NCBI RefSeq assembly: GCF_000002515.2
Contig: NC_006041.1
Span: 1,426,001 to 1,490,000, forward strand
DNA length: 64,000 bases
DNA from: Kluyveromyces lactis
Lineage: Eukaryota; Ascomycota; Saccharomycetes; Saccharomycetales; Saccharomycetaceae
Direction of reading: 5' to 3'
Shown: piece after piece, positions 15,784-43,108 of the stretch
Numbering within the stretch: the stretch's first letter is position 1
Layout: each line of letters begins with the position of its first letter
Position numbers and translations under genes: made by a program
The notes under the pieces: model-generated
Databases searched by the model: none
What the model was told of the DNA's origin: nothing
What the model saw: the letters and a program-made list of their open reading frames with translations, nothing else

Positions 15784-17244
15784 TTAGTTCCATTCTTCTT
15801 CTTGAGCTTGACCTTCTTCAGCCCATTCAGCAGCTTCGGTTTGTTCTTCAGTAGCGTCAACGGCTTCTTCAGTTTGTTCACCGGAAGCAACAGCTTCTTC
15901 TTCAGCAGTTTGTTGTTCGATTTCTTCTGGGTTTCTGTAGAAGTACAAATCTGGCATGATAGCCCATGGTTGAGTTCTGTCTGGTAGAGCACCTCTCAAT
16001 CTTAGGACTTCTCTAGCCAACAAGTACCAGATCAAACCGATGGAGTGCTTACCTCTGTTGTTACATGGGATAGCAACATCAACGTATTCGGATGGGGAGT
16101 CCAAATCGGTCAAAGCGATGACTGGGATGTTAACGTAAGAAGATTCCTTGATAGCTTGAGCATCGGATCTTGGGTCAGTAACGATAACCAATCTTGGTTC
16201 CTTGAAAGATCTGGTGATGTAGTTAGTGAAAGAACCTGGGGTAAATCTACCAGCAATTGGAGTAGCACCGGTGTGAGCAGCGTACTTCAAGACAGCTCTT
16301 TGACCATAAGTTCTGGAAGAGATAGCAACAACATCTTCTGGGTTTGGAATGGCAGCAATGATTCTGGCAGCCAAAACAATCTTTTCCCAGGTCTTACCAA
16401 CGTTGATAACGTTGACACCATCTGGTCTAGCCTTGTAGACGTATGGTTCTTGGTGAACCTGTTAATAATTAAAAAATAACCATGCAAACGTTTCGTTCGC
16501 AAAAGTTAAAAATATATTGTTAGTAAAGAGAGAGCTTTTTCCCAACCGCAACATGCGACAGGATACACTTTTCGAAGTGCAGATATTACCATATGATAGA
16601 GGAGATGTTCGTGTACTTTTTTATTATTATTTTAGTTCCCTAGAAATGGCAGGCCATTTCAATTGTTGTTCTTTTAACAGATTCAGTTAAAACCATATCC
16701 TCTCGTACTTCAGTCTGATATCCTTGTTCGAAGGGAATCAGAATTGAAATAACGAGGGGAAATAGAATGTTTAACGTACGTATATCCTCTATGCTGTTAG
16801 GTAAAGAGCAACAAATATAAATATTTGCATATTCTTTCTTGTGAGTGAAGCCATTATCCTTGACATCAGCACTCATTTAGTTAGTAGCACCGTGCCAAAT
16901 ATTCAACATCCATGATTAACCTGCGGAGAGGCCTAACCAATGTTATTGATTTAAAACACGAGCAAAAACAAGGTACAAGCATAAGTACAGAAGTATCATG
17001 ACAGCTAATCTTGCTGTGATACAATATTCTCTTTTTTGTAACAGTTCTTTCTAATTGATGCATTTCTGGTATTGAACAAACACCACTCCTCTTATCGAAT
17101 ACGTATTATCCAAACCGAAGTTCGTATCCATATTTCGTAAATTTCTCAACATACTTGGACGTTCTTAGCACCCAAGTGGACTCTGGCAGCCAACAACAAT
17201 TGGGCGTCTTCTGAGGTCAAGTCGAAGGTAGATGGCAAAGACAT
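15784..17244 (-). CDS. RPS0: Small-subunit ribosomal protein uS2 (Rps0), two exons
   Basis: Coding is split. Exon 1 is 17155-17244 (30 codons, [20 protein letters not shown] to NVQ) and exon 2 is 15784-16458 (VHQEPYV to the stop), giving 254 residues, close to the 252 of S. cerevisiae Rps0. The intron lies after NVQ, the same place as in the S. cerevisiae RPS0 genes. The uS2/laminin-receptor core is clear: [22 protein letters not shown] and [12 protein letters not shown], then [11 protein letters not shown]. The C-terminus is acidic (EEEWN), typical of eukaryotic Rps0, which is needed for 18S maturation. Codon use is strongly biased, as in highly expressed genes. A Rap1-type site lies upstream. 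One gene here corresponds to the RPS0A/RPS0B pair of S. cerevisiae. Confidence 0.97.
16459..17154 (-). other. RPS0 intron (696 nt)
   Basis: On the minus strand the intron opens with GTATGT (17154-17149) and ends TTAACAG (16459 last base). A perfect TACTAAC branch point is at 16519-16525, about 60 nt before the 3' splice site, with a T-rich tract and no AG between. A second perfect TACTAAC sits at 16880-16886 in mid-intron. The phase is 0. No coding content or box C/D snoRNA is seen inside. Confidence 0.93.
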
Positions 17245-26348: not shown

Positions 26349-27911
26349 GGTTGAAATCTGTTTTGGTTTTGGTTACTCCAGATCATACAAGACATACATT
26401 ACAATAATAATAAGACACAACCACAACAAGATTGGAAGAACGTTGATTGTCGAAAAAAAGACGCCAAACCAGTTACTTTTATATATCAAGAAACGCAGGT
26501 GTGGTACATCCAGCGGGCTCATACTGAATTAGAGTTATTTTAGTGAGAGATAGTAAAAAGGTACCGGAGATGAGGTTAGTGAAAAAAAAAAAAAAAAGTT
26601 TCACAGATCATCACAATAACTAAATCAAAACCACTACCTGGATAACCGGAACACTGGAAAATACTCGCCCCTCGTCACTCAACAGAGAAGAACTGGAGAG
26701 CGTTTCAGGAAGGAAGGAAAGAAGGAAAGAAACCAGATGGAATAGCCAAAGTAACCGGCACAGAAGCATGACGTTTAAGGTAAGTGTTTGAGAGAGTATC
26801 ATCATCTCAGTTACGGAATTTGGATATATCCGCCTATCCAGTCGCCAATTCGCAGGGACAATAAGCAAATGCCCCATATCTAAAAGTAGCTTAAAAGTCG
26901 CATAGAGGAGGCAAAAGGGCATGAAGAACCCTTCGTAAGGTTGGCGGATGCAGCATGTGGTAGAAGCAAACGGGTATTGCCATTATCCTATCTCCGGAAA
27001 TTCGCTGTAATTAGGCAAGTCCGTTGCTCCAGAGGAGGAAACACACCCCAGACTCCGAGAATCGCAGGATGTGTGGTTTATCGAGTTGTTTGATGGTCAG
27101 AAGTACTGGAGAGAAGAGAAGAGAGATTGTTGTTCCACGCTTCGAGGAGGGAAAATCTTTTCTTTTCCTTCCAGGGTTCTGCGGGCAGTGTGTGGAGAAC
27201 GGCTAATATTTAGCCGTTTCGGCACGTATAGTGTAGGTTGTTGGAGCGTGGGGGTGGTGGAAAAGCCACTGCGAAACGCTTCACTCCACGCTTCACCGGA
27301 TAATATATGTGGTGTTCGTTTCCCGGGACAACAGGTTTGCCAATCAGTTTCTGCTGTTTTTGCACTCTGCATGAGGGAAAAAATAACTCCGGAGCGTGGG
27401 TTAGTACCGGGAAGTGGGGTTAGATTCGACAGTATGGGCGATCGCAATGGTGGGGGGCGTAACTATTCACCTACTCTTTTTCCCACTCTCTTCCCAACCT
27501 CCAACCCCCCACGCTTCATTCCCTGAAAATCCAGAGAGGAGGGCGGTTTTGACCAGGGTAACGCCCCTGGTGGATCTGTGGTGTTACCCTAACTCACTGT
27601 GTATGTTTTTCCTCTAAACTCTCAAAAAAAGAACACTGTGCTGCGTCGCTGTAACGTGCATTCTTGCAGTACTAACAGCATAACGAGGCGACAACGGTGC
27701 GACAACGACGGAATACAACGTTTTGGGGCCCACCTGGAAGTATATGGGTCGGTCATCCCTGATTTCAGCCATTCCATCTCCTCTTTTACCCCAATGGCCG
27801 AAGCATCTGTGATCCCCTTTTATATGAGGGCCGACGTATTGTTTCAGCTCATCAGGCAATTCATGGTTCGACGTTTACCGTTACTTGCATAGATGGGTAT
27901 ACCAACAAGAG

Positions 27912-42302: not shown

Positions 42303-43108
42303 ATGGCGGAAGAGAATGAAAGTGAGACCGATTACGGGTCTTCTCCCTTTAAAAAGATTCCAGACGCCGACAAACAGATCTTAGAATGGACTAGTCGTCT
42401 AGAGTTGGAGACTGTGCAGTTGCGGGACACGTCTGAGAGTCTATTCAAGATTATCAAGGAGAACGTGGATGAATTGAGCCATTCGCGAAAGTTATTCCAA
42501 GCAGAACTTGACAGTAGAAAAGGTATGGTTTCTATGCACAATGAAAGGAATATCTACTTAGTATAAGGGCATTTACTTAGTTCTATCTACGTGGATTGGT
42601 CGTTGATTGATACCCTTTAGGAATGATTCTTTGTAAGAGTCACTACGGTCAGTTTTTACTAACTAGGAAAATAACGGATGAGACTCCGAGAAGTCGCCGT
42701 TATTTCTGTGTGTATTTAGATGGTAATCAAGAAACGGGAACGGAGATTGTCTCTGAAGTAAAGTCTCGTTTGGATCAATTAAAGGCATCAAGCGGTGAAA
42801 GTTTGCAACTTTTAGCGGATAATATTACGAAGCAGATGGATAAACGACATCGAGAATGGATGGACAGATTTACCATGAATGAAAATGTCATGTTCAATGT
42901 CGTGCAACAAATGCAAGACCTCACGGATGCCATCCAGACGTTGCATGAAGATATGAGGTTAGCTAGCAAGAGGCAGGCGTTGCTTGAGAAAAGATTGAGA
43001 CATGAATCTATCGCTACGCCTGAATCTCAACACCTAAATCAAAACCAGACACAACGACTCAGGGTATTAATCCCCTGGGAAGAAGTTCAAGAGTGCGAAA
43101 TGAAATGA
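42303..43108 (+). CDS. REC107: Meiotic recombination protein Rec107/Mer2, two exons
   Basis: Splicing 42303-42522 to 42720-43108 gives 202 residues (S. cerevisiae Mer2 has 314). Exon 1 carries the conserved core DKQILEWTSRLELETVQLRD. Exon 2 has a coiled coil with MFNVVQQMQDL and ASKRQALLEKRLR, and near the C-terminus LIPWEEV, which matches IIPWEEL of the S. cerevisiae protein. Mer2 binds chromosome axes and, once phosphorylated by CDK and DDK, recruits Rec114-Mei4 for double-strand breaks. Without splicing, translation stops at 42564-42566 after 87 residues. The last 22 bases overlap the 3' end of TDA10 on the other strand. The order MDE1-LSM8-REC107-TES1 is as on S. cerevisiae chromosome X. 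Confidence 0.92.
42523..42719 (+). other. REC107/MER2 intron (197 nt), weak 5' splice site
   Basis: The 5' site is GTATGG (42523-42528) instead of GTATGT. The branch point is a perfect TACTAAC (42657-42663), and the 3' site is TTTAG ending at 42719. The branch A to 3' site distance is 57 nt. The joined codon GAT (Asp) keeps the frame. A TAG immediately after the branch point is too close to be used. A Mer1-enhancer match lies inside at 42610-42617. Confidence 0.88.
42610..42617 (+). promoter_or_regulatory. Mer1 intronic splicing enhancer match
   Basis: ATACCCTT fits the S. cerevisiae Mer1 enhancer consensus AYACCCUY exactly. It sits 88 nt into the intron of the Mer2 homologue, one of the known Mer1 targets in S. 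cerevisiae. Function here is inferred from this match and the weak 5' splice site. Confidence 0.65.

Follow-up and report, generated by a model that had tools for sequence, protein, structure and literature searches.

A candidate Mer1-dependent splicing switch in the REC107/MER2 intron of Kluyveromyces lactis

The REC107/MER2 gene of Kluyveromyces lactis lies in a 64,000 nt stretch of contig NC_006041.1 (G000:C5:1426001-1490000, referred to here as the window) and raises the question of whether its intron is a meiotic splicing switch like that of Saccharomyces cerevisiae. In the latter species, the available text of PMC6380292 describes binding of Mer1 to AUACCCUU in the introns of MER2, MER3/HFM1, SPO22 and AMA1, and the primary transcripts can already be detected ahead of meiosis (PMC10550323, in part). 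K. lactis is a non-WGD species for which a REC107 orthologue has been reported, according to the part of PMC3161974 that was available. Judged from its sequence, the MER2 intron is a candidate member of the Mer1-regulated class, and the reading we favor, at a probability of about 0.73, is that it acts as a Mer1-dependent splicing gate of the S. cerevisiae kind.

The features of the locus are given in Table 1. The initial annotation had proposed an intron in REC107/MER2 that begins GTATGG instead of GTATGT and contains an exact AYACCCUY match and a perfect TACTAAC, and direct reading of the sequence bore out each of these signals and their positions, as well as the prediction that unspliced RNA would specify a stub, since the open frame gives 87 residues and then TAA. 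When joined, the two exons specify 202 residues and match the Pfam Mer2 family (PF09074) with 72.7 bits against a curated cut-off of 27.7 bits, the best stretch running over residues 13-96 on profile positions 15-96. Scored separately, the unspliced exon-1 frame reaches 56.6 bits and the exon-2 frame 24.5 bits, below the cut-off. Because the exon-1 frame alone matches the profile up to residue 82, which is nine residues beyond the junction, the Mer2 profile by itself does not fix the junction. The relatives found were limited to proteins P0001 and P0002; the first follows the window frame from position 42623 on, a start 5 nt beyond the element, and differs from that frame at one of 161 residues, and the second, judged by eye, covers exon 2 only. 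The TACTAAC heptamer alone is not rare, with six copies in the window against 6.3 expected.

Table 1. Coordinates of REC107/MER2 features in the window (position 1 is its first nucleotide).
Feature	Position	Strand	Basis or remark
REC107/MER2 exon 1	42303..42522	+	220 nt; Pfam Mer2 match of spliced product
MER2 intron	42523..42719	+	197 nt; splice signals, frame, Pfam score rise on splicing
5' splice site GTATGG, non-consensus at +6	42523..42528	+	Read directly
In-frame TAA inside intron, end of 87-residue stub of unspliced RNA	42564..42566	+	
Mer1 enhancer match ATACCCTT, intron position +88	42610..42617	+	Exact AYACCCUY match
Branch site TACTAAC	42657..42663	+	Read directly
5' arm of 9-bp perfect stem, branch site to 3' splice site	42669..42677	+	Shuffle test
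3' arm of 9-bp perfect stem	42697..42705	+	Loop with three AGs
3' splice site TAG	42717..42719	+	Read directly
REC107/MER2 exon 2	42720..43108	+	389 nt, stop included

The 5' splice site had been described as poor, and this part of the earlier reading did not hold. GTATGG is a non-consensus hexamer that deviates at +6 only, while GTATGT stands at the 5' sites of SPO22, REC114 and RPS0 in K. lactis. The last of these, presumably RPS0 from its peptides, had been noted in the same window, and its GTATGT is at 17154 on the minus strand. GTATGT is also given as the consensus in the available text of PMC4202332. The U1 RNA is present in the genome (5' end ATACTTACCT), and in a crude duplex computation that used unmodified bases, ignored U6 and allowed a bulge (in MER2), the MER2 site was the strongest of the five compared (-6.6 kcal/mol), followed by HFM1 and REC114 (both -6.2), SPO22 (-5.5) and RPS0 (-4.0). 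A change to T at +6 would bring the computed MER2 duplex to -6.9 kcal/mol. With U1 aligned in the usual register, the MER2 site is paired at -3 to +3 and at +5, and the GTAAGT of HFM1 pairs at all of +1 to +6. With the strongest pairing at MER2 and full pairing at HFM1, these two introns lack the weak 5' site that makes up half of the known mechanism. Reduced U1 pairing belongs to the proposed mechanism and not to the published definition, as far as the accessible texts go. Poor U1 pairing was thus not borne out as the cause of low splicing, and does not explain it.

Low basal splicing could instead come from loss of a U6 pair, as U6 pairs with the 5' splice site at +6, or from the length and structure of the intron. 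The S. cerevisiae MER2 intron is about 80 nt, and differs in this from the 197 nt intron of K. lactis with its element at +88. Between the branch site and the TAG is a perfect 9-bp stem; when the 56 nt that follow the MER2 branch site were shuffled 3000 times, four of the shuffles had a stem of 9 bp or more. The 9-bp stem would be expected to shorten the path from the branch A to the 3' splice site from 57 to about 20 nt. Intron hairpins are known that draw the branch site close to the 3' splice site, and the K. lactis stem, with AGs in its loop, resembles them; a similar function for it is putative. The whole MER2 intron folds no better than shuffles (z 0.05).

Orthologues of the S. cerevisiae Mer1 targets were found by family searches. 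Of three Sec63-family frames, two have a pair of Sec63 matches each; the third, with a single match, was taken as HFM1/MER3, and its 159 nt intron carries GTAAGT, ATACCCTT at +31, TTCTAAC and AAG. The octamer lies within a 10-mer, GATACCCTTT, that is common to the MER2 and HFM1 introns, and the respective positions of +88 and +31 mean that spacing from the 5' site is not conserved. The SPO22 intron (105 nt, GTATGT, TACTAAC) is without the element. Of the CDC20-family frames, one matches Cdh1 best and one Cdc20/Slp1, and the third was taken as AMA1; it is open through the WD40 domain with no intron needed. The exact octamer is therefore present in two of the three introns found among orthologues of the four S. 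cerevisiae targets, and SPO22 and AMA1 depart from the pattern. REC114, which is meiotic and not one of those four, also has an intron, of 102 nt, that begins GTATGT and is without the element. This intron (locus L060, in the region of G000:C6:1575394) is close to the 3' end of the gene and also has TACTAAC and CAG. A profile search for Mei4 (PF13971), run without a positive control, gave no match.

A MER1 homologue had been suggested as something to look for in the same genome, and is present at G000:C4:1603523-1604338 (minus strand). Among 17 Pfam KH matches in the genome, several of them in the same genes, is one at C4:1603574-1603789 within the 271-residue MER1 frame. This KH domain is C-terminal (residues 185-255), scores 34.6 bits against a cut-off of 21.5, and has an intact GxxG loop, GHEG. 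The full length of the protein aligns at 92% identity with a record named Mer1 [Kluyveromyces lactis]; the Mer1 protein searches returned one cluster only and are uninformative on distribution. Frames of the RIO2, HSP70 (613 aa, SSB-like) and tyrosine phosphatase families lie nearby, in what we take to be the gene order around MER1 in S. cerevisiae. The tyrosine phosphatase frame beside MER1 (L047:6748-7811, minus strand) is split over two overlapping reading frames, which cover Pfam positions 1-65 and then 69-232. NAM8 was assigned to locus L055 (G000:C6:1375042-1376811), with an E value of 8.4e-116 to the S. cerevisiae Nam8 chain. Two other loci were considered for this gene: L054 was dropped as unlike Nam8 by eye, and L056, a poorer match than L055 (E value 4.5e-44), was taken as a paralogue, presumably NGR1-like.

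How far chance accounts for the element depends on whether MER2 is considered alone. With both strands counted, 286968 nt contained AYACCCTY 23 times (8.0e-5 per nt), and the motif appeared in 0.66% of 20000 dinucleotide shuffles of the MER2 intron, while the exact ATACCCTT appeared in 0.32%. When the MER2, HFM1 and SPO22 introns were shuffled together (20000 dinucleotide shuffles), at least two of the three carried AYACCCTY in two shuffles, and at least two carried the exact octamer in none. The octamer in the MER2 intron alone is modest evidence, and combined with HFM1 it is strong. Across the genome (10,729,447 bases, 7 contigs), there was no enrichment of AYACCCTY at 4-64 nt before TACTAAC, with four places against eight for a reversed control, and the motif on its own is insufficient evidence for Mer1 control. 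Three of the four places are in likely introns (MER2, a short-chain dehydrogenase gene and an RPL21-like gene), and the fourth is antisense to a long open frame. Loosening the pattern raised the count to 307 places, with 507 in the control, and this version was left unused.

The short-chain dehydrogenase gene (locus L058, G000:C5:726286-726354, minus strand) has a likely 133 nt intron that starts GTATGTATACCCTT, with the octamer at +7, abutting the 5' splice site; it is possibly an unexpected Mer1 target, or else a chance occurrence. At locus L059 (G000:C5:2102147-2102195, minus strand), ACACCCTC starts 42 nt before TACTAAC in a likely intron of a gene that we take to be RPL21-like. The RPL21-like intron is presumably constitutive, a caution against motif-only calls, and the octamer in two introns with no reason to be meiotic counts against the Mer1 reading. 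These two introns, the 0.3-0.7% of shuffled MER2 introns that contain the motif, and a computed U1 pairing at MER2 that is at least as strong as at the four other sites are what would be expected if the intron were spliced constitutively, with ATACCCTT present by chance and GTATGG a variant of no consequence. We consider this unlikely because the same octamer recurs in the HFM1 intron with a joint shuffle chance of 2 in 20000 or less, and because MER1 is kept with its KH loop intact.

A different explanation would have MER2 regulated in meiosis mainly by relieved spliceosome competition or by Nam8 alone, with Mer1 now acting chiefly on HFM1. Consistent with this are the distance of the MER2 element from the 5' site, the statement in the available part of PMC6726248 that meiotic introns may need repressed ribosomal protein genes or Mer1, and the Nam8 requirement of PCH2 splicing in S. 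cerevisiae (PMC6380292, in part). The retention of an exact octamer in MER2, inside the 10-mer common to HFM1, makes it a very improbable account of this intron.

The upstream regions of the meiotic genes were also read for URS1, whose consensus was taken to be TAGCCGCCGA. An exact copy, a putative Ume6-type site, lies at -63 of the MER1 ATG, another is at -101 of SPO22, and a copy with one mismatch is at -28 of the REC114 ATG. No copy with up to two mismatches occurs in the 800 nt upstream of MER2 or of HFM1, none was found upstream of AMA1 or of its mitotic relatives CDC20 and CDH1, and a search of the 64-kb window that tolerated up to one mismatch gave none. The whole genome (10.7 Mb) contains 20 exact copies, against eight for the reversed pattern; the MER1 and SPO22 copies were matched to genes, and 18 others remain. 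Of the six meiotic promoters read, three have URS1 and three do not, and two of the latter belong to the genes with Mer1-element introns, MER2 and HFM1. The URS1 genes with an intron that was read (SPO22 and REC114) have consensus 5' sites and no Mer1 element. This distribution suggests that genes may be gated either at transcription or at splicing, a rule that AMA1, with neither URS1 nor element, does not fit, and which is put forward as a hypothesis because six promoters are too few for a test.

Taken further, a single meiotic input might act through two gates, in which MER1, SPO22 and REC114 would be controlled at transcription, and MER2 and HFM1 would be on and switched at splicing by Mer1, whose enhancer would have lost its need for a 5' site that pairs poorly. 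In that case SPO22 would have exchanged gates relative to S. cerevisiae and AMA1 would be controlled in a third way. We offer this extension tentatively, as a possibility that may well prove wrong.

The Mer1-dependent gate itself may be pictured as follows. In growing cells MER2, with no URS1 found upstream, would be transcribed and its intron spliced poorly, so that unspliced RNA would yield the stub. At the onset of meiosis MER1 would be turned on through its perfect URS1, the Mer1 KH domain would bind the enhancer in the MER2 intron, and Mer1 together with the U1 protein Nam8 would commit U1 to the 5' site. Mer2 protein could then be made and Spo11 breaks could form, and HFM1/MER3 would be gated likewise. 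The parts, at defined positions and in a combination beyond chance, are present in the genome; from them we infer the low basal splicing, the binding, the dependence on Mer1 and the meiotic timing.

Of the switch as originally proposed, the enhancer match has been joined by the MER1 and NAM8 genes and a second target, HFM1, and the poor 5' site has fallen away. The likeness to the S. cerevisiae regulon is in the octamer and branch site of MER2, the presence of both factors and the HFM1 element, while the differences are a MER2 5' site that is off only at +6 and not weak in computed U1 pairing, a SPO22 intron with a consensus 5' site and no element, and an intronless AMA1. Given the same octamer in HFM1 in addition to the enhancer match, MER1 and NAM8, a pre-duplication origin is the simplest reading, and Mer1 control of MER2 and HFM1 probably predates the genome duplication in yeasts. 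Separate gains of ATACCCTT in MER2 and HFM1 within the Kluyveromyces lineage, which would be compatible with the same mechanism, could account for the differing element positions and for a SPO22 intron without the element. Such convergence seems quite improbable, since the same two genes are S. cerevisiae targets, which makes retention simpler, and MER1 is itself old, an ancestral gene whose homologues in distant families are syntenic according to the available text of PMC8567612.

According to the same partial source, Saccharomycodes ludwigii has lost MER1, which K. lactis keeps, and no REC107, HFM1 or AMA1 introns were detected there, whereas K. lactis keeps two element-bearing introns; the SPO22 intron is kept in both, and the regulon varies between lineages. 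The age of MER1 (PMC8567612) and the K. lactis REC107 gene (PMC3161974) are already in print, as seen in parts of these papers. A literature search returned no study of Mer1 control of splicing in K. lactis, and the supplement of PMC4202332 holds intron alignments of 20 species that may include the MER2 intron. The HFM1 element, the SPO22 intron without it, the intronless AMA1, the good U1 pairing and the URS1 pattern go beyond the initial annotation. If the Mer1 reading is correct, a classic example of regulated splicing, studied until now in S. cerevisiae, would be ancestral to the family, and its target lists could be compared across species. SPO22 would have moved between splicing and transcription control while staying meiotic, and K. 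lactis would serve as a laboratory yeast for studying how Mer1 works at an intron with a well-pairing 5' site.

Elsewhere in the window, the plus strand at 27601-27676 has a GTATGT with TACTAAC 69 nt later, outside the listed plus-strand frames, and this is possibly an intron of a short gene or of a leader.
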